A stretch of DNA of 64,000 bases from Citromicrobium bathyomarinum. Lineage in GTDB: Bacteria > Pseudomonadota > Alphaproteobacteria > Sphingomonadales > Sphingomonadaceae. The stretch lies in the NCBI GenBank assembly GCA_001306305.2, contig CP155577.1:1178001-1242000 (forward strand), in the 5' to 3' direction. Below the pieces are notes generated by a model. That model saw only the letters and a program-made list of their open reading frames with translations, was not told the origin of the DNA and ran no database searches. The translations under genes and the position numbers were made by a program. This document shows, in pieces, positions 36,590 through 49,439 of this stretch (positions are counted from its first letter, which is position 1; each line of letters opens with the position of its first letter).

Positions 36590-37363
36590 ATGTCTGAATT
36601 TCAATTGAAGGATCTGGCTTCGGTCAGGATCACCGACCAGGACGACATCCGCCCAGCGGCGGAGGCCCTGCACGCAGTCGCGCTGGAGCGTGGCTATCGC
36701 GTCGCCCCGGCGCACGATATCGCCGACAAGCGAACCCCTGTGGACAAGGACGGCAATGTCCTCGCCATGGAGGTGTTCGGCTGGGCGGGTGATGAAAGTG
36801 CGTGGTGGCGCAATTCACGGATCGCGCTCGACAGTCCGATCACCACCGCGTGCCGGTTCGAGAACGAACCCTACTGGGTGAACGAGGACGGTTTCCGCAC
36901 CCGCCTGCCCAACGCCTATCTCGAGAAGATCGACCTCACCAACTTCACCAAGCGGGCGATGACCCGCGCGGCGATCGTGGTGCCGGTGCACATGGCCTTC
37001 GGGCGGATCGGCGCGGTCAGCTTCAACCCGCTGGATGAGGACAGGATCGATCTGGCCGCAGATTACGAGGAATATGCCGATCTGTTCGCGATCCTCTCGC
37101 GCGCGTTCATCTCCAGCTACACCGTGGTGATGACCTCGCCCGAGCCGCTTCCTGCGGGCTCGCGCCTGTCGAAGCGGGAGGTCGAATGTCTGCGCTGGGC
37201 GGCGATCGGCAAGACCGATCTGGAAATCAGCATGATCATGTCGCGTAGCCGTGCGACCGTGCGGTTCCACATGCACAATGCTTCGATCAAGCTGAACGCC
37301 GTCAATCGCAGCCAGACGGTCTTCAAGGCCGCGCAGTTGGGTTATATCTCCCAGAACAACTGA
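36590..37363 (+). CDS. LuxR-family transcriptional regulator with autoinducer-binding-like domain
   Basis: Start ATG 36590 (MSEFQLKDL) has GGAGAG upstream. The 257-aa product has an N-terminal alpha/beta sensor domain with ALDSPITTACRFENEPYWVNED (residues ~75-100), which lines up with the conserved D/P and aromatic region of AHL-binding domains. A C-terminal LuxR helix-turn-helix follows (LSKREVECLRWAAIGKTDLEISMIMSRSRATVRFH, ~190-225). No luxI-like synthase is in the window, so it is a solo. Set in the middle of the catabolic genes, it probably senses a pathway metabolite or an external signal. Confidence 0.88.
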   Translation: MSEFQLKDLASVRITDQDDIRPAAEALHAVALERGYRVAPAHDIADKRTPVDKDGNVLAMEVFGWAGDESAWWRNSRIALDSPITTACRFENEPYWVNEDGFRTRLPNAYLEKIDLTNFTKRAMTRAAIVVPVHMAFGRIGAVSFNPLDEDRIDLAADYEEYADLFAILSRAFISSYTVVMTSPEPLPAGSRLSKREVECLRWAAIGKTDLEISMIMSRSRATVRFHMHNASIKLNAVNRSQTVFKAAQLGYISQNN

Positions 37364-39116: not shown

Positions 39117-39512
39117 ATGCGCGCGATAGCCGAAGGGCTGTTTACACAGGACGTGCCGCCGAGGCTGATCGGCGGGCGCAATCGCCATACCGGCCGGATC
39201 GTGTTTCCCTGTCCGGAAAACGGAGATTTCGAGCCGCATCCGCTTTCGAGCGAGGGCAGCTTGTGGTCGTACACGATCCAGCGTTTCCGCCCCAAATCTC
39301 CGCCTTATGAAGGGCCTGAGGATTTCAGGCCGTGGGCGCTCGGCTATGTCGCATTGCCGGGCGAGACGATCGTCGAGGCGCGGCTCGTCAACGTCGCGTT
39401 CGAGGATCTGGCGATCGGAATGCCGCTGCGCTTCACGCTCGCGGCCTTGGACGACGAGGCGGAACAGCCGCGCGCGATTCCTGCGTTCGAACCGGTGGAG
39501 ACCGCAGCATGA
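39117..39512 (+). CDS. DUF35 OB-fold protein, acyl-CoA-associated partner of thiolase-like enzyme
   Basis: The 131-aa product keeps the DUF35 OB-fold (GSLWSYTIQRFRP, PWALGYVALPGETIVEARLVN). The N-terminal zinc-ribbon is degenerate: only one Cys, in FPCPENGDFE, where the family usually has four. DUF35 proteins pair with thiolase-like enzymes, as IpfE with IpfD and ChsH2 with Ltp2. The ATGA overlap with the next gene supports a complex. First gene of the long catabolic operon. Confidence 0.85.
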   Translation: MRAIAEGLFTQDVPPRLIGGRNRHTGRIVFPCPENGDFEPHPLSSEGSLWSYTIQRFRPKSPPYEGPEDFRPWALGYVALPGETIVEARLVNVAFEDLAIGMPLRFTLAALDDEAEQPRAIPAFEPVETAA

Positions 39513-40654
39513 GCGATGTGTGCATTATCGGCGTGGGGATTCATCCCTTCGGGCGAACCGACGGGGTCGAAGGGATCGACCAGGGCGTGTTCGCGGTACG
39601 CGAAGCGCTTAAGGATGCCGGGGTCGAGTGGCCCGACATCCAGTTCGCCTATGGCAGCTCGGATGCGGCGGGCAATCCCGATACGATGGTCGAGCGGCTG
39701 GGCCTCACCGGGGTGCAGTTCATCAATGTGCGCAATGGCTGTGCGGCGGGCGGATCGGCTCTGTTCAGCGCGCAGATGGCGATCAAGTCGGGCGATTTCG
39801 ACCTCGGCATCGCGGTCGGCTTCGACAAGCATCCGCGCGGCGCTTTCGATGCGAAGCCCGCCGAATACGGCCTGCCTGACTGGTATGGCGAAGCCGGCTA
39901 CATGGTCACCACGCAGTTCTTCGCGATGAAGATCATGCGCTACATGGAACTGCACGGCATCTCGCGCGACAGCCTGGGCCGCGTGGCCGAAAAGGCGTTC
40001 CGCAATGGTGCCCACGCGCCCCATGCGTGGCGGCGCGAGCCGGTCGATCTGGAGACGATCCTCCAGGCACCGATGATCAGCGATCCCTACAGCAAGTACA
40101 TGTTCTGCTCGCCCGCCGAGGGCGGGGTCGCGCTGATCCTGGCGAGCGAGCGCAAGGCGCGTGAACTTGGCTGCAAGCCGATCCGGCTGAAGGCGGCGAC
40201 GATGCGGACCCGCCCGCCGGGCAGTTTCGAGGTCTTCGCCCCGTCGATCGATATCGAACGTGGCGGAACCGCCACCGCGCTGGCCAGTGCGGCGGCGTTC
40301 GAGGCGGCGGGGATCGGTCCGGACGAGATCGACATCGCGCAATTGCAAGACACCGAAGCGGGCGCAGAAATCATGCACATGGCCGAGAACGGCTTTTGTG
40401 CCGACGGCGAGCAGGAGGCCTGGCTGGCCGAGGGGGCGACCGCGATCGACGGGCGGCTTCCGGTCAACACCGATGGCGGCTGCATTGCGTGCGGCGAACC
40501 CATCGGGGCGAGCGGCCTGAGGCAGGTCTACGAAAATGTCATTCAGCTGCGCGGCGATGCCGGGGCGCGACAGGTGCCGGGCGATCCCAAGACCGCCTAC
40601 AGCCATGTCTATGGCGCACCCGGCGTTTCCGCCGTGACGATCCTGGAGCGATAG
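39509..40654 (+). CDS. Thiolase-like protein (SCP2/Ltp2 type), probable C-C lyase
   Basis: The 381-aa product has the thiolase fold with a Cys at the nucleophile position (Cys78 in RNGCAAGGSAL). The catalytic His of the usual GHPxGxxG motif is Glu330 (ACGEPIGASG), and the terminal CxG motif is replaced by HVYGAPGVSAV. This residue pattern is unlike a working biosynthetic or degradative thiolase. It is like the lipid-transfer/Ltp2-type proteins that carry out retro-aldol cleavage of side-chain CoA thioesters together with DUF35. Overlaps the DUF35 gene by ATGA; the next gene follows its stop with no gap. Confidence 0.87.
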   Translation: MSDVCIIGVGIHPFGRTDGVEGIDQGVFAVREALKDAGVEWPDIQFAYGSSDAAGNPDTMVERLGLTGVQFINVRNGCAAGGSALFSAQMAIKSGDFDLGIAVGFDKHPRGAFDAKPAEYGLPDWYGEAGYMVTTQFFAMKIMRYMELHGISRDSLGRVAEKAFRNGAHAPHAWRREPVDLETILQAPMISDPYSKYMFCSPAEGGVALILASERKARELGCKPIRLKAATMRTRPPGSFEVFAPSIDIERGGTATALASAAAFEAAGIGPDEIDIAQLQDTEAGAEIMHMAENGFCADGEQEAWLAEGATAIDGRLPVNTDGGCIACGEPIGASGLRQVYENVIQLRGDAGARQVPGDPKTAYSHVYGAPGVSAVTILER

Positions 40655-41863
40655 ATGGATATTGCGCTGACCAAAGAAGAAGAGCGCTTCCGCAGCGAGC
40701 TTCAGGAGTGGCTGAAGGCCAATCTCACCCCCGAGCTCAAGCGTGGGGCGAGGCTTTCGCCCGGCGTCTTCGCAGAGCCCGACGTGGCGGTTCCGTTCAT
40801 GGCGAAGCTCAACGAAGAAGGCTGGCTGGCCTACCAGTGGCCCGAGGCGCATGGCGGGACCGGCTGGTCCGCGACCAAGAAGTATATCTTCGAAAAGGAA
40901 CTCGCGCTCGCAGGCGCGCCCAACTCTGCGGTCATGGGGACCAAGCTGGTCGCGCCGGTGCTGTGGACTTTCGGCAGCGATGCGCAGAAGGACTATTACC
41001 TTCCGCGCATCCTCTCGGGCGAGGACTACTGGTGCCAGGGTTTCTCCGAACCCGGTTCGGGTTCGGACCTCGCCAGCCTTTCGTGCCGCGCGCGGCGCGA
41101 CGGCGACAAATATGTGGTCGACGGATCGAAGATCTGGACCACCCACGCGCAGTTTTCCAACCGCATGTTCACGCTGGTGCGGACCGATAACAGCGGCAAG
41201 AAGCAGGCGGGTATCAGCTTCCTGCTGATCGATCTCGACACGCCGGGGGTCAGCGTGCGCCCGATCCACAACATCGCCGGCGATCACGATGTGAACCAGG
41301 TCTTCCTCGAGAATGTCGAGGTGCCGGTCGAGAATCTCGTCGGGGAAGAGGGCGCGGGCTGGACCATCGCCAAGTTCCTGCTGGAGAACGAGCGCGGCGG
41401 ATCGTGCCATGCGCCCAAGCTGGGCCATGCGCTCGACGTGATCGAGCGCGCGGCAGCCGACATGCCCGATGGTGCTGGCGGCATGCTGGCCGATGATCTC
41501 GCCTGGCGGCGGCGGGTCGCGCGGCTGCGGTTGCGGCAGGAGTCGCTCGAAATGATCGAGCTCAAGATTCTCGCCAATGTTGCCAAGGGCCGCGATCCCG
41601 GTCCGCAGACGTCGCTCACCAAGCTCATCGCATCCAGCCTCAACCAGGACATCGATCTGCTGGCGGTGGATCTGTACGGCCCGCGCGCCTTGCAATTGCC
41701 GGTCGAGAGGCCGCTATACGGCGAGGATGTGCCCGAGCCGATCGGATCGGAGGACGCGCAGGTTGCGATGGCACGCTATCTCAACAGTCGTGCCTGGAGC
41801 ATCTTCGGCGGCACCAACGAAGTGCAGTCGACAATTATAGCAAAAACCGTGCTCGGCATGTGA
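40655..41863 (+). CDS. Acyl-CoA dehydrogenase (copy B)
   Basis: The 402-aa product is a full ACAD: WCQGFSEPGSGSDLASLSCRA (FAD/substrate loop), GSKIWTTHAQFSNRMF, and C-terminal SIFGGTNEVQSTIIAKTVLGM. It introduces an alpha,beta double bond in an acyl-CoA, passing electrons to ETF. Its ATG follows the thiolase stop directly, so dehydrogenation and C-C cleavage are likely to be linked steps. Confidence 0.93.
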   Translation: MDIALTKEEERFRSELQEWLKANLTPELKRGARLSPGVFAEPDVAVPFMAKLNEEGWLAYQWPEAHGGTGWSATKKYIFEKELALAGAPNSAVMGTKLVAPVLWTFGSDAQKDYYLPRILSGEDYWCQGFSEPGSGSDLASLSCRARRDGDKYVVDGSKIWTTHAQFSNRMFTLVRTDNSGKKQAGISFLLIDLDTPGVSVRPIHNIAGDHDVNQVFLENVEVPVENLVGEEGAGWTIAKFLLENERGGSCHAPKLGHALDVIERAAADMPDGAGGMLADDLAWRRRVARLRLRQESLEMIELKILANVAKGRDPGPQTSLTKLIASSLNQDIDLLAVDLYGPRALQLPVERPLYGEDVPEPIGSEDAQVAMARYLNSRAWSIFGGTNEVQSTIIAKTVLGM

Positions 41864-41882: not shown

Positions 41883-42854
41883 ATGCAATTGAGCCGTGAG
41901 CAGCTGCTACAGGCCTATCGAAGGATGGCCACGATCCGGGCGTTCGAGGAACGCCTGCACGATGTGATCGCCACCGGCGAGGTCGCCGGGTTCACCCACC
42001 TCTATTGCGGCCAGGAAGCGGTCGCCGTGGGCGTGTGCGAACATCTCGATACCGAAGACAAGATCGTCTCCACCCATCGCGGCCACGGGCACTGCCTCGC
42101 CAAGGGCTGCGATGTGCAGGGGATGATGAAGGAAATCTGGGGCAGCACCGAAGGCCTGTGCAAGGGCAAGGGCGGCTCCATGCATATCGCCGATGTCGAC
42201 AAGGGAATGCTGGGTGCCAACGGCATCGTCGGCGCAGGCGCGCCGATCGCGGTTGGCGCGGCGCTGTCCAACAAGCTCGACGGGGAAGGGCGCGTCGCGA
42301 TCGCCTTCTCGGGCGACGGGGCGTGCAACCAGGGCACTACCTTCGAAGCGATGAACATGGCGGTCGTCACCAACGCGCCGTGCATCTTCGTGTTCGAGAA
42401 CAACCACTATTCCGAACATACCGGCGATGACTATGCGGTCGGCACCGCCAACGACATCGCGAGCCGCGCGGAGGCCTTCGGCATGCGCGTGTGGCGCGCG
42501 GACGGCTGCGACTTCTTCGCTGTCTATGAGACCATGCGCGAACTGCTCGAATATGTCCGGGCGGGCAACGGCCCGGCGGCGGTCGAGTTCGATACCGAGC
42601 GCTTCTATGGCCACTTCGAAGGCGACCCGCAGAACTATCGCGGCGATGGCGAGCTCGACCGGATCCGCAAGGAACGCGACTGCCTGCAGATCTTCCGCCG
42701 CCGCGCCACCGAAGCGGGGCTGCTGGAAACCGACGCGCTCGACGAACTCGACAAGGCGGCGCACGCCGATGTCGAGGCGGCGGTGGAGGCGGCACGCGCC
42801 GCCCCCCGGCCGACCGCCGAGGATGTCCTCACCGATGTCTATGTCACTTATTGA
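41883..42854 (+). CDS. Thiamine-PP-dependent dehydrogenase E1 alpha subunit (pyruvate/acetoin type)
   Basis: The 323-aa product has the ThDP motif SGDGACNQGTTFEAMNMA...FENN, plus HRGHGHCLAKGCDVQGMMKEIWG and KGKGGSMHIADV of the E1-alpha family. Length and motifs match AcoA and PDH alpha. With the beta and E2 genes following it would form a 2-oxoacid or acetoin dehydrogenase complex. It has AGGGAGAGAG upstream. Confidence 0.93.
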   Translation: MQLSREQLLQAYRRMATIRAFEERLHDVIATGEVAGFTHLYCGQEAVAVGVCEHLDTEDKIVSTHRGHGHCLAKGCDVQGMMKEIWGSTEGLCKGKGGSMHIADVDKGMLGANGIVGAGAPIAVGAALSNKLDGEGRVAIAFSGDGACNQGTTFEAMNMAVVTNAPCIFVFENNHYSEHTGDDYAVGTANDIASRAEAFGMRVWRADGCDFFAVYETMRELLEYVRAGNGPAAVEFDTERFYGHFEGDPQNYRGDGELDRIRKERDCLQIFRRRATEAGLLETDALDELDKAAHADVEAAVEAARAAPRPTAEDVLTDVYVTY

Positions 42855-42867
42855 AGAGCGCTGAGCT

Positions 42868-43878
42868 ATGGCTGAAATGATGTATCGCGACGCGGTTCGC
42901 GAAACGATCCGCGAAGAAATGGCCCGCGACGAAAGCGTCGTGGTGCTTGGCGAAGACGTGGTCGGGGGCATGGGGACCGCTGGCGGGCCGGAGGCGATCG
43001 GCGGTATCTGGTCGACCTCTACCGGGCTGTTCGAACAGTTCGGCGCATCCCGCGTGATCGACACGCCGATCTCCGAAAGCGCGATCGTCGGCACTGCCGG
43101 CGGCCTCGCGCTCAGCGGCAAGCGCCCGGTGGCAGAGCTGATGTTCGCCGACTTCATCGGGGTCAGCCTCGACCAGTTGTGGAACCAGATCGGCAAGTTC
43201 CGCTACATGTTCGGCGGCAAGACGCGCTGCCCGGCGGTGATCCGGATGGCCTATGGCGGCGGGTACAACGCCGCGGCGCAGCACAGCCAGTGCGTCCACC
43301 AGATCCTGACCGGGATGCCGGGCCTCAAGGTGGTGATGCCATCCACGCCCGAAGATGTGCGCGGCCTGCTGCGCACCGCCATTCGCGGCGACGATCCGGT
43401 GATGTTCCTTGAGCACAAGGCGCTTTACGGCGTCTCGGGCGAAGTGCCCGAAGGCGACTACACGATCCCCTTCGGCCATGCGCGTCAGGTGACTGCGGGC
43501 GAGGATGTGACGGTGATCGCCACCGGCATGATGGTCGGCGTGGCCGAGGCCGCAGCCGAGCGGATGGCCGAAGACGGCATCGGCGTCGACCTGCTGGACC
43601 TGCGCACGACCAGCCCGATGGACGAGGAAGCGATCCTCGACTCGGTCGAGGTGACCGGGCGTCTGGTGATCGTCGACGAGGCCCCGCCGCGCTGCAATCT
43701 GGCGACCGACATTGCCGCGCTGGTTGCGCGCAAGGCGTTTTCCAGCCTGCGTGCCCCGGTCGAGATGGTCACTGCGCCGCACTCGCCCGTGCCCTTCGCG
43801 CTCGAGCTGGAGCAGGCATACCTGCCGTCCGACGACCAGGTCGAAGCCGCGGTTCGCAAAACACTCGATTATCGCTGA
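42868..43878 (+). CDS. Thiamine-PP-dependent dehydrogenase E1 beta subunit
   Basis: The 336-aa transketolase-like protein has VVVLGEDVVGGMGTAGG, DTPISESAIVGTAGGLAL and GVSGEVPEGDYTIPFGHAR. It pairs with the E1 alpha gene 13 bp upstream. AcoB/PDH-beta type; the substrate is not determined by sequence. Confidence 0.93.
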   Translation: MAEMMYRDAVRETIREEMARDESVVVLGEDVVGGMGTAGGPEAIGGIWSTSTGLFEQFGASRVIDTPISESAIVGTAGGLALSGKRPVAELMFADFIGVSLDQLWNQIGKFRYMFGGKTRCPAVIRMAYGGGYNAAAQHSQCVHQILTGMPGLKVVMPSTPEDVRGLLRTAIRGDDPVMFLEHKALYGVSGEVPEGDYTIPFGHARQVTAGEDVTVIATGMMVGVAEAAAERMAEDGIGVDLLDLRTTSPMDEEAILDSVEVTGRLVIVDEAPPRCNLATDIAALVARKAFSSLRAPVEMVTAPHSPVPFALELEQAYLPSDDQVEAAVRKTLDYR

Positions 43879-43891
43879 GGAGGCGGATGGA

Positions 43892-45331
43892 ATGACCGAT
43901 CTGCGCGCCTTTTGCATGCCCAAATGGGGCATCGAGATGACCGAGGGAACGCTTGCCGAATGGATGGTGGGCGAAGGCGACGCCTTCAAGAAAGGCGATC
44001 TGCTGTGCCTGATCGAAACCGACAAGATCACCAACGAGGTCGAGGCCGAGAAGGACGGCGTCGTTGAACGGATCGTGGTGAAGGCGGGCGGCGATGCCGA
44101 AGCCGTCGGCAGCCTGCTCGCCGTGTTCGGCGATGGTAGCGCCGATGCGGAAGCGATCGACAGCTTCGTTGCCGGGTTCAAGCCGACCTCCGCGCTGGGG
44201 AGCGTCCGCAAGAAGAAGCCCGCCGCACAGAAGGTGGCGGACGATCAGCCCGTGCCGCCCAAGGATGCGAGTGGCGGCGAAAAGAAGCCGGTAAAGATCG
44301 ACACCAATCGCCCCATCAGCCCCGAAGCGCTCAAGTTCGCCGAGGCCGAGGGCGTGGACATTTCGGGCATCGAGGGGTCGGGTCGCGAGGGCCGGATTAC
44401 CTTGCAGGACGTCCAGCAGGCGGCGCGCCCGGCGCGTACGCCGCAACTGCGCGGTCCGGTCGATCATCCGGAGGAGAACCTTGAGGTGTTCGCCTCTCCG
44501 CTCGCCCGGCGGATCGCCTCGCAGAACGGGGTCGATCTGGCCCCGGTTGAAGGCACCGGCCCGCGCGGACGGATTCGCAAGGCCGATGTGCTCAAACTGC
44601 TGGAAGGGCAGGGCACCGCCAGCGACGCGCCGTTCGTGCCGGTCGACAACAGGCCGGATATCGAGCCCTTCGATCGCGTGCGCAAGGTGGTCGCCAAGCG
44701 GCTCACCGCGGCCAAGCAGGACATCCCGCATTTCTACCTGCGGACGTCGGTCTGCGCCGATCCGGTTATCGCGCTGCGCCGTCACGCCAATCTGGTGCTG
44801 GGCAGCAAGGCCTCGCTCAACGATTTCGTGGTGATGGCGGCGGCGCGTGCGCTGCGGCGCCATCCAGAGGTCAACGTGCAGCTGCATGGCGAGGAGATCC
44901 ATCGTTTCCCCCACGCCGATGTTTCGGTTGCGGTTGCCTCGCCCAATGGGCTGATGACGCCGATCGTGCGGCAGGCCGACCGGCTCGGCATCGGGCAGAT
45001 CGCAAAGGCGACCCGTGCGCTGATCGACAAGGCGGAGGCGGGCCGGCTGGGCTACGACGATCTCGACGGCGGGACTTTCACCGTGTCCAACCTCGGCATG
45101 TTCGGGATCGAGAATTTCGATGCGATCATCAATCCGCCGCAGGCCGCGATCCTCGCGGTCGGAACCGCCTCGCGCGTGCCGACCGAGGGCGAGAATGGGG
45201 CAATCGCGTTCGAGACGCGTATCTCGCTGACCCTGTCGGTCGATCACCGTGCGATCGATGGCGCAGCGGGGGCGAAGTTCCTCGCCACCTTCAAGACCCT
45301 GTTCGAGAACCCCGAGGAATTGTTCGCCTGA
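43892..45331 (+). CDS. Dihydrolipoamide acyltransferase E2 with two subunit-binding domains
   Basis: Start ATG 43892 with GAGGAGG upstream. The 479-aa product has one lipoyl domain (lipoyl Lys45 in ETDKITNEVE) and a charged linker. Two peripheral-subunit-binding domains follow, at ~141-177 and ~200-236 (both with G.GxxGRI.. cores). The catalytic domain (~250-479) has His452 and Asp456 in SVDHRAIDGA. Two binding domains are unusual; most bacterial E2s have one. No E3 (dihydrolipoamide dehydrogenase) gene is in the window, so a housekeeping E3 would be needed. Confidence 0.93.
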   Translation: MTDLRAFCMPKWGIEMTEGTLAEWMVGEGDAFKKGDLLCLIETDKITNEVEAEKDGVVERIVVKAGGDAEAVGSLLAVFGDGSADAEAIDSFVAGFKPTSALGSVRKKKPAAQKVADDQPVPPKDASGGEKKPVKIDTNRPISPEALKFAEAEGVDISGIEGSGREGRITLQDVQQAARPARTPQLRGPVDHPEENLEVFASPLARRIASQNGVDLAPVEGTGPRGRIRKADVLKLLEGQGTASDAPFVPVDNRPDIEPFDRVRKVVAKRLTAAKQDIPHFYLRTSVCADPVIALRRHANLVLGSKASLNDFVVMAAARALRRHPEVNVQLHGEEIHRFPHADVSVAVASPNGLMTPIVRQADRLGIGQIAKATRALIDKAEAGRLGYDDLDGGTFTVSNLGMFGIENFDAIINPPQAAILAVGTASRVPTEGENGAIAFETRISLTLSVDHRAIDGAAGAKFLATFKTLFENPEELFA

Positions 45332-45370: not shown

Positions 45371-45904
45371 ATGCCCAAGCCTGGAAGTCTCACCGCTCTG
45401 GGGCCGTGCGAGCAGCTCGCCTACGTGCCGAGCGATTTCGACGCGGCGCTGAAATACTGGACCGAGACCATGGGGGTCGGCCCCTTCTTCCTGTTCGAGA
45501 ACATCACGCTGGAGAACATGCATTATCGCGGCGAGCAGACCGATGCGCGTTTCTCTGTCGCGATGGCCTATTGGAACGACATCCAGATCGAGCTTTTCCG
45601 GCCCGAGAACGACGCGCCTGCCCATTATAACGGCGAATACGGGGTGAAAGACCGGCTGCACCACACGCTGGTGATCGTCGAGGATTTCGAGGCGGCGAAG
45701 AAAGCGGTCGGCGATGCGGGGGCCGAGATCATCGTCGAAGGCACCTTCGGCGGCGCGCGGGTCTATTATGTCGATCCCGGCGCGGGGCCGGGCGGGCTGC
45801 TGGAGATCCTCGAAAAGTCCGAGCAGGGCGAACAGCTTTTCACGATGATGCGCGATGCCGCGCGCGACTGGGACGGCAACGAGCCGCTTCGGACACTGGG
45901 ATAG
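45371..45904 (+). CDS. VOC-family (glyoxalase-like) metalloprotein, second copy
   Basis: The 177-aa product has CEQLAYVPSDFDAALKYWTETMG and RLHHTLVIVEDFEAAKKAV half-domains, with His in LHHTL and Glu in IELF and LLEIL as metal-ligand candidates. It resembles the VOC gene at 17170 and, like it, stands just before an oxygenation gene (here the P450). The reaction could be epimerase or lyase; not assignable. Confidence 0.85.
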   Translation: MPKPGSLTALGPCEQLAYVPSDFDAALKYWTETMGVGPFFLFENITLENMHYRGEQTDARFSVAMAYWNDIQIELFRPENDAPAHYNGEYGVKDRLHHTLVIVEDFEAAKKAVGDAGAEIIVEGTFGGARVYYVDPGAGPGGLLEILEKSEQGEQLFTMMRDAARDWDGNEPLRTLG

Positions 45905-47178: not shown

Positions 47179-48372
47179 ATGATCGAGGTTTCGCAACGCG
47201 CCCGGGACATCGGCGATCGGGTGGAGGACTTCGTGCGGAGCAAGATCGCGCCTTACGAGCACGATCCGCGCCGCGACCATCACGGCGCGCCGACCCGCGA
47301 ACTGGTCCGCGAAATCCGCGCGCTCGCCCGCGAGGCAGGGCTGATGACACCGCACATCATGGGCGATGGCAGCCACCTGACCCAGGTTGAGACTGCCTAT
47401 GTGCTGATCAAATCGGGCCTCTCCCCGCTCGGCCCGCTGGCGCTCAACACCAACGCGCCGGACGAGGGCAACATGTACTTGCTGGGCCATGTCGGCAGCG
47501 ACCACCTGAAGGAGAAATTCCTCTCCCGACTGGTTTCGGGCGACGAGCAAAGCGCGTTCTTCATGACCGAGCCTGCCGACTGGGGCGGGGCCGGGTCCGA
47601 TCCTTCGATGATGAAGACCACCTGCAAGCTGGACGGCAATCACTGGGTGGTGAACGGGCGCAAGCGCTTTATCACCGGGGCCGACGGCGCAGGCGTGGGC
47701 ATCGTGATGGCGCGCGCCGAGGGCGTGGACGAAGGCGGCGGGGCCTGCATGTTTCTGGTCGACCTGCCCGATCCCGCAATCCGGATCGAGGGCGCGCCCA
47801 ACACGATCGACAATTCGATGCCCGGCGGCCATGCGGACGTCACGATCGAGAACCTGCGCGTGCCTGCCGACCAGATGCTCGGCGCGGCGGGCGAGGGCTT
47901 CCGCTACGCGCAGGTGCGCCTGTCGCCGGCGCGCCTGTCGCACTGCATGCGCTGGCTGGGCGCGGCGATCCGGTGTCAGGAGATCGCCAGCGACTATGCC
48001 TGCCGCCGTCAGGCCTTCGGCAAGCCGCTGATCGATCACGAAGGCGTGGGCTTCATGCTCGCGCAGAACCAGATCGACCTCAAGCAGGCCGAACTGATGA
48101 TCTACTGGTGCGCCAGCGTGCTCGACACGGGCGATCTGGGCACCACTGAAAGCTCGATGGCGAAGGTCGCGGTCTCCGAAGCGCTGATGCGGGTGGCCGA
48201 CAACTGCGTACAGGTGATGGGCGGCACCGGAGTGACCGACCAGACCATTGTCGAGCAGGTGTTTCGCGAGCTGCGCGCGTTCCGGATCTACGATGGCCCG
48301 ACCGAGGTGCACAAATGGTCGCTCGCAAAGAAGATCAAGAAGGCCCACCGCGAGGCCGCCGCGTCGGCATGA
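47179..48372 (+). CDS. Acyl-CoA dehydrogenase (copy C, ACAD10/11-like) coupled to kinase
   Basis: The 397-aa product has SAFFMTEPADWGGAGSDPSMMKTTC, NGRKRFITGADGAG, CRRQAFGKPLIDHEGVGFMLAQNQIDLKQAELMIYWCA and VMGGTGVTDQTIVEQVFRELRAFRIYDGPTEVHKW. This pattern is found in ACADs paired with APH-type kinases. ATG 47179 (GAAGGA upstream) is the start. It overlaps the kinase gene by ATGA. In the ACAD10/11 and levulinate (Lva) systems this pair handles 4-hydroxyacyl-CoA. Confidence 0.92.
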   Translation: MIEVSQRARDIGDRVEDFVRSKIAPYEHDPRRDHHGAPTRELVREIRALAREAGLMTPHIMGDGSHLTQVETAYVLIKSGLSPLGPLALNTNAPDEGNMYLLGHVGSDHLKEKFLSRLVSGDEQSAFFMTEPADWGGAGSDPSMMKTTCKLDGNHWVVNGRKRFITGADGAGVGIVMARAEGVDEGGGACMFLVDLPDPAIRIEGAPNTIDNSMPGGHADVTIENLRVPADQMLGAAGEGFRYAQVRLSPARLSHCMRWLGAAIRCQEIASDYACRRQAFGKPLIDHEGVGFMLAQNQIDLKQAELMIYWCASVLDTGDLGTTESSMAKVAVSEALMRVADNCVQVMGGTGVTDQTIVEQVFRELRAFRIYDGPTEVHKWSLAKKIKKAHREAAASA

Positions 48373-49439
48373 GCGCCGCAGCAGAGGGGAATACGGGCAC
48401 CACGGCTGTCCGCGCGGGCTACGAACTGGACCGTGCGGCGCTGGAGGCATGGCTGCGCGGCCATGTCGACGGGTTTGCCGGACCGTTGGAGGTGGACCAG
48501 TTCAAGGGCGGGCAGTCCAACCCGACCTATCGCCTGACCACACCGACGCGCAGCTACGTGCTGCGGCGTAAGCCTCCGGGCGAAATCCTCAAGGGCGCGC
48601 ACGCGGTGGAACGCGAGGCGCGGGTTATGGCGGCGTTGGGCCAGACCGGCTTTCCCGTTCCCGCAATTCACGGTCTGTGCGAGGACGAGAGCGTGCTCGG
48701 CACGCCGTTCTTCGTGATGGAGATGGTCGAAGGGCGCATCTTCTGGGATGCGACCTTTCCCGATGTGCCCCTCGATGCGCGGCCTGACTACTTTGCGGCG
48801 ATGAACGGCGTGCTCGCCCAATTGCACGGGGTCGATCCCGAGGCGGTCGGGCTGGGCGACTACGGCAGGCCCGGCAACTACTTCGCGCGCCAGATCGCCC
48901 GCTGGTCGAAGCAATATCTGGCCGACGAAGAGGCGGGCCGTAACGTGGACATGGACGCGCTGGTCGAATGGCTGCCCGAGAATATCCCGCCGGGTGAGGA
49001 AACCGCGATCGTCCATGGCGATCTGCGCTGCGACAACATGATCTTCGCGCCCGACGAGCCGCGCGTGCTCGCGGTGCTCGACTGGGAGCTCTCGACGCTG
49101 GGCCACCCGCTCGCCGATTTCGCCTATAACGCCATGATGTACCGGATGCCGCCCGACATCGTGGCGGGGCTGCGCGGCGCCGATCTGGCCGCGCTCAATA
49201 TTCCGAGCGAGGCGGAGTATGTCGCCGCCTATTGCGCGCGGACCGGGCGCGAGAGCATTCCCAACTGGGATTTCTACATCGCGTTCAACTTCTTTCGCCT
49301 CGCGGCGATCTTCCACGGGATCAAGGGCCGGGTGATCCGCGGCAATGCCGCCAGCGCGCAGGCGGCGGAGCGGGCGACGAAGTTCCCAGTCCTCGCCCGG
49401 CTCGCGCGCGAGGCGATGCCGGCCTGCGAGCAAGGGTGA
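48369..49439 (+). CDS. APH-family phosphotransferase (acyl-CoA kinase-like, LvaA/ACAD10 type)
   Basis: The 356-aa product has QFKGGQSNPTYRLTTPTRSYVLRRKP (P-loop-like start), the catalytic loop VHGDLRCDNMIF, and VLDWELSTLGHPLADFAY with the metal-binding Asp. These match the ACAD10/11 N-terminal kinase and LvaA, which phosphorylates the 4-hydroxy group of a CoA thioester. Overlap (ATGA) with an ACAD suggests the bacterial two-gene form of the fused human protein. Last gene of the long catabolic operon. Confidence 0.88.
   Translation: MSAAAEGNTGTTAVRAGYELDRAALEAWLRGHVDGFAGPLEVDQFKGGQSNPTYRLTTPTRSYVLRRKPPGEILKGAHAVEREARVMAALGQTGFPVPAIHGLCEDESVLGTPFFVMEMVEGRIFWDATFPDVPLDARPDYFAAMNGVLAQLHGVDPEAVGLGDYGRPGNYFARQIARWSKQYLADEEAGRNVDMDALVEWLPENIPPGEETAIVHGDLRCDNMIFAPDEPRVLAVLDWELSTLGHPLADFAYNAMMYRMPPDIVAGLRGADLAALNIPSEAEYVAAYCARTGRESIPNWDFYIAFNFFRLAAIFHGIKGRVIRGNAASAQAAERATKFPVLARLAREAMPACEQG

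Follow-up and report, generated by a model that had tools for sequence, protein, structure and literature searches.

A gene for an acyl-CoA dehydrogenase (ACAD) in Citromicrobium bathyomarinum overlaps the start of a gene for a kinase of the APH fold, which raises the question of whether the two proteins catalyze consecutive steps of one reaction. The chemistry of mammalian ACAD10 and ACAD11, in which a kinase and an ACAD domain are fused, was assigned only in 2024–2025. A preliminary description of the locus had proposed a bacterial route of this kind. We analyzed the gene pair within a window of 64,000 nucleotides, its relatives in other genomes and its genomic setting; coordinates refer to this window unless another locus is named.

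Layout and Co-occurrence of the Two Genes

The ACAD open reading frame (47179..48372, + strand, 397 amino acids) begins with the ATG at 47179 and ends with the TGA at 48370-48372, while the frame of the proposed 4-hydroxyacyl-CoA 4-kinase of the ACAD10/11 type (48369..49439, + strand, 356 amino acids) begins with the ATG at 48369. The ATGA said to join the ACAD to a kinase with the motif HGDLRCDNM was located exactly, at the shared bases 48369-48372 (+ strand), an arrangement that suggests translational coupling. Three ACAD domains were recognized by Pfam in the first frame (Acyl-CoA_dh_1, 5e-39) and an APH domain in the second (2e-53).

A named scan with the window ACAD returned 80 loci, the nearest from Citromicrobium bathyomarinum with a 100% identical ACAD. 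The kinase gene lies directly 3' of the ACAD gene on the same strand in 53 of these 80 relatives, showing that the adjacency exceeds chance, and is separated from it by one gene in 4 more. A four-base overlap, ATGA or GTGA, can be read in at most 37 of the 53 loci with directly adjacent genes, which is an upper estimate because start codons were picked as the nearest fit to such an overlap. The remaining 23 loci have no adjacent kinase, although in 3 of them the contig breaks off too early for a neighboring kinase to be seen. When 15 whole genomes from these 23 were searched, a kinase at least 49% identical was found elsewhere in all 15; some ACADs of this kind may use a distant kinase or act otherwise. 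Among the family genomes, such a kinase is encoded by 56 of 56 with the ACAD compared with 157 of 200 overall (p = 9e-8, uncorrected for kinship), and it lies within 200 bases of the ACAD at 37 of 60 ACAD places in the 200 genomes.

Plasmids of Acinetobacter soli, Pseudosulfitobacter, Sphingobium and Blastomonas also carry the pair, where its catabolic surroundings are quite different. Of 78 loci, 23 have a short-chain dehydrogenase (SDR) gene immediately upstream in the same orientation, and only 1 has it on the opposite strand. The same-strand placement would suit a hydroxyl made from a ketone, as in the LvaD reaction, but is no more than a hint.

Two further observations came from this survey. 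In a metagenome-assembled genome labelled Novosphingobium sp. Chol11 (L103, 7226-13144) the order is Rieske, unknown, SDR, ACAD, enoyl-CoA hydratase and kinase, and none of the genes tested in this context encodes an amidase. A C5 bile-acid side chain hydroxylated at position 20 would correspond to a 4-hydroxyacyl-CoA, and the pair might bear on the sphingomonad side-chain pathway. For the window itself, a bile-salt side-chain cluster is not supported, amidase and seco-steroid genes being absent among its annotated genes. On Sulfitobacter pontiacus plasmids (matches H163 and H180), a stretch encoding an LvaC-type ACAD is called vanG glycopeptide resistance by PLSDB, apparently falsely.

Predicted Phosphate-Binding Residues and Position of the ACAD

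In mouse ACAD11, R626, H634 and R637 hold the 4-phosphate from one helix, beside the base D753, and replacing R626, H634 or R637 blocks the reaction of the ACAD, so that the phospho-intermediate accumulates (PMC12440821). The window ACAD carries the corresponding phosphate cradle R247, R252 and H255-C256-M257-R258 (47917..47952, + strand; mouse R626, R631 and H634-C-M-R637), and its predicted catalytic base D372 (48292..48294, + strand; mouse D753) is found in the motif IYDGPTEVH. All the residues reported to be essential in mouse ACAD11 for processing 4-phosphoacyl-CoA (R, HCMR and the Asp base) are present. The cradle residues and D372 are invariant in 20 aligned clade members, kinase-less loci included, whereas the genome's ordinary ACADs have no R/H/R cradle and carry E or G at the position of D372.

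The best sequence match of the ACAD in the PDB is ACAD11 (8v3u, 181 bits), followed by 4hr3. Its predicted structure (AF2, pLDDT 87.8) places the cradle on a single helix (residues 240-276). The best fold match of this model is human ACAD11 (2wbi, Z 42.6, rmsd 3.0 over 381 residues), a comparison that discriminates weakly, since other ACADs score only about 1-3 lower and SCAD and MCAD reach about 40.

Phylogenetic analysis, in which some outgroup branches were long, placed all cradle-bearing ACADs in one clade (support 100/100) apart from eight ordinary ACADs. Within this clade, the window ACADs and a sister group of about 50% identity are separated from the LvaC/ACAD11 group (100/99). The window ACAD is 33% identical to mouse ACAD11 and lies outside the LvaC/ACAD11 subclade, for which an identity of at least about 50% was expected. 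Because of the separate branch and the low identity, we do not file it as an LvaC/ACAD11 orthologue. By its sequence, it is the same kind of enzyme as LvaC and ACAD10/11 and belongs to a distinct, previously unnamed subfamily. Members of a sister group (about 48-50% identity; L060, L061, L062 and L065) have the same cradle and a different, 9o56-like kinase, with HMD for HGD, encoded upstream and not downstream.

Relatives and Residues of the Kinase

The kinase is about 41% identical to the kinase domain of mouse ACAD11. Its catalytic motif HGDLRCDN (49014..49037, + strand) contains D218 and N223, equivalent to mouse D220 and N225, and HGDLRCDNM spans residues 216-224. Two arginines of the ACAD11 kinase have been set against CoA by molecular dynamics (PMC12440821). 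One of them, reported there as R86, is the Arg of DRE according to the PDB chain, so that the published number is mismatched; it corresponds to R82 of the window kinase, beside the alphaC Glu E83 (R82-E83, 48612..48617, + strand). The other, R176 in mouse, is matched by R174 (48888..48890, + strand), a proposed CoA contact. D218, N223, R82 and R174 are invariant in 20 kinase relatives. Both arginines are missing from three other APH proteins of the same genome and from the fragment 3ats, which we take to be Rv3168.

A phmmer search of the PDB at E ≤ 1e-5 matched six distinct chains only: 3dxp (386 bits), two mouse ACAD11 constructs through their kinase domain (257 and 253 bits), 9o56 (184 bits), 3ats (56 bits) and 9fsg (40 bits). 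The closest of these, 3dxp, was deposited as a 'putative acyl-CoA dehydrogenase', a misleading name for what is by sequence a kinase. The preliminary description had held that clustering with antibiotic or choline kinases would speak against its reading; no APH(3') or choline kinase occurs among the PDB relatives at this threshold, and the NCBIfam APH(3') model scores 34.7 bits, below its equivalog cut-off of 205. Similarity scores and residue checks were used in place of rooted kinase trees, which were uninformative with remote APH outgroups on long branches. The proximity of the kinase to 3dxp and the ACAD11 kinase domain, together with the cradle and Asp base of the ACAD, bears out the view that both enzymes are ACAD10/11-like.

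Comparison With Known Pairs

The window pair shares with mammalian ACAD10/ACAD11 the identical cradle R/H/C/M/R and Asp base as well as both CoA-contact arginines. Unlike the fused mammalian enzyme, it consists of two proteins with the ACAD gene first, its ACAD retains only the 33% identity given above, and it sits in a dedicated catabolic cluster. Burkholderia pseudomallei orthologues can stand in for the ACAD10 domains in vitro (PMC11342911).

In the levulinate operon of Pseudomonas putida, LvaA and LvaC are likewise a kinase and an ACAD encoded by separate genes of one operon, and the same two-step chemistry is expected. The parallel drawn earlier with these two proteins holds in part: the window ACAD shares the cradle and the clade of LvaC and ACAD10/11 but is not an LvaC orthologue. 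LvaC is reported to be 56-62% identical to the ACAD domains of ACAD10/11 (PMC11342911), far above the window ACAD, whereas LvaA is reported to be only 29% identical to their kinase domains (PMC11342911), compared with 41% to mouse ACAD11 for the window kinase. A levulinate operon of the lva type was rejected, the gene set and order of LvaB, LvaD and LvaE being absent around the pair.

The same genome holds a second pair (L053, at about 959-963 kb of a genome contig) with a cradle-bearing ACAD and an ACAD10/11-type kinase that is 52% identical to the window kinase. It differs from the window pair in that its ACAD and kinase are 56 and 39% identical to mouse ACAD11, respectively, making it a true ACAD11/LvaC type, and in that a zinc alcohol dehydrogenase gene lies between the two genes. 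The third cradle-bearing ACAD of the genome (L005) has the Asp base, with HAMR in the place of HCMR, and within about 1.5 kb of it no kinase was matched.

Genomic Setting

The pair lies in a catabolic cluster spanning 16.6-49.4 kb, for which no described counterpart was found in the literature searched. Its genes include those for three Rieske oxygenase alpha subunits, a Rieske ferredoxin, six SDRs, two CurA-like enone reductases, a GMC oxidoreductase and a cytochrome P450; others encode a TonB receptor, a CoA ligase, an OB-fold/thiolase-like pair, two more ACADs, E1a, E1b and E2, and a VOC protein.

A conserved module, in the order OB, thiolase-like, ACAD, E1a, E1b, E2, VOC, ACAD and kinase, ends with the pair. 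In the window, all on the + strand, a LuxR-type regulator stands at the head of this module (36590..37363), followed by the OB-fold (ChsH2_C) and thiolase-like proteins (39117..40654), an ordinary PimC-like ACAD that lacks the cradle residues (40655..41863), the E1 alpha (41883..42854) and E1 beta (42868..43878) subunits, the lipoyl E2 acyltransferase of a 2-oxoacid/acetoin-type dehydrogenase (43892..45331) and the VOC-family protein (45371..45904). The core of E1a-E1b-E2-VOC with ACAD-kinase is kept in 18 of the 80 loci. The thiolase-like protein (39509-40654) keeps the active Cys (NGCAAGG) but reads GEPIG where GHPxG is usual, and QDTE in place of the HDxF of thiolases; paired with the OB-fold protein, it may act as an unusual thiolase or as an aldolase. 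A further stretch of approximately 22 kb (16652-38989), much of which is conserved in Croceicoccus, holds catabolic genes that include those for the Rieske alpha subunits, the CurA-like reductases, SDRs, the TonB receptor, the CoA ligase and the GMC oxidoreductase.

Between the VOC gene and the pair lies the gene for the P450 (45921..47138, + strand), which is 68% identical to CYP101C1 (PDB 3oft/3ofu), an enzyme that hydroxylates ionones (PMC9655578). Such a P450 gene precedes the pair in the window and follows it in Novosphingobium humi. In all 11 family genomes with the P450, from 6 of 6 genera, the E1a gene is present as well (genus-level p = 2e-5), but in 8 of the 11 the P450 is away from the module, and it is absent from the stretch read for 17 of the 18 module copies among the named loci. 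The P450 probably shares a pathway with the pair and, like the Rieske enzymes named alongside it in the preliminary description, is only a candidate source of the 4-hydroxyl.

Proposed Reaction and Alternative Explanations

The explanation that we consider highly probable, on the strength of residues, relatives and gene context, is that the pair performs the ACAD10/11 reaction as two separate proteins. Its genes stand at the end of the conserved catabolic module, and the ATGA overlap would couple their expression and let kinase and ACAD be made at equal dose. To judge from fold, residues and relatives, the kinase would transfer phosphate from ATP to the hydroxyl at C4 of a 4-hydroxyacyl-CoA. 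The FAD enzyme would then grip the 4-phosphate by R247, H255 and R258 while D372 removes the alpha proton and FAD transiently takes the hydride; the phosphate would depart from C4 before the flavin returns the hydride. The predicted product, a 2-enoyl-CoA, could enter beta-oxidation; the reaction would involve no net oxidation and would not require ETF, and the pair would thereby remove a hydroxyl that blocks the breakdown of a fatty-acid-like molecule. The pair probably serves a CoA-activated intermediate in the degradation of a cyclic compound, perhaps a terpenoid.

Alternatively, the ACAD could be an ordinary beta-oxidation FAD dehydrogenase that is merely co-transcribed with a kinase for an unrelated small molecule; the breadth of substrates among APH-fold kinases, the 23 of 80 clade ACADs without a neighboring kinase and the nearly tied ACAD folds (Z 42.6 for human ACAD11, about 40 for SCAD/MCAD) speak for this alternative. 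We regard it as highly improbable, however, given that ordinary ACADs of the same genome have neither the R/H/R cradle nor the Asp, that the kinase is specifically ACAD10/11-like, and that ACAD and kinase occur together in 56 of 56 genomes. The 33% identity to ACAD11 means that the substrate of the ACAD could differ in kind, and the pair might remove another hydroxyl (3- or 5-hydroxy, ring or tertiary) by phosphorylation and elimination, with a substrate other than a linear 4-hydroxyacyl-CoA. While the distinct subfamily and the Rieske, P450 and enone-reductase genes, which suit cyclic substrates, point in this direction, the cradle is placed where ACAD11 contacts the C4 phosphate, and the elimination, an alpha,beta oxidation followed by vinylogous loss, requires a leaving group at C4; on balance a different hydroxyl seems unlikely.

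A further reading concerns the substrate and is compatible with the two-protein ACAD10/11 reaction: catabolism of an ionone ring, norisoprenoid-like, with hydroxylation by the adjoining P450. It draws on the similarity of this enzyme to the ionone-using CYP101C1 (PMC9655578), its place beside the pair in the window and in Novosphingobium humi, the E1a gene in all six P450-bearing genera and the two CurA-like enone reductases nearby. The 17 of 18 module copies without such a P450 in the stretch read and the 8 of 11 genomes in which it lies elsewhere with no module around argue against it, and ionones are not established as the native substrate of CYP101C1; we view an ionone substrate as rather doubtful. 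More broadly, the window ACAD and its sister group of about 50% identity may be an undescribed phosphate-eliminating subfamily that, together with ACAD10/11-type kinases, brings ring-derived acyl-CoAs of a terpenoid- or steroid-like kind, in addition to linear 4-hydroxy fatty acids, within reach of dehydroxylation by phosphorylation and elimination, a proposal that we advance tentatively, at somewhat less than an even chance.

Significance

The chemistry of ACAD10/11 is already known, and what is new here is the distinct subfamily and its context. If the proposed reaction is correct, dehydroxylation by phosphorylation and elimination is a reusable catabolic module, of which a separate subfamily occurs in dozens of sphingomonad, roseobacter and other genomes, where its members are annotated as 'acyl-CoA dehydrogenase' and 'aminoglycoside phosphotransferase'. 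The presence of the pair would then predict 4-hydroxyacyl-CoA intermediates in uncharted pathways, and misleading resistance-like annotations would be corrected.
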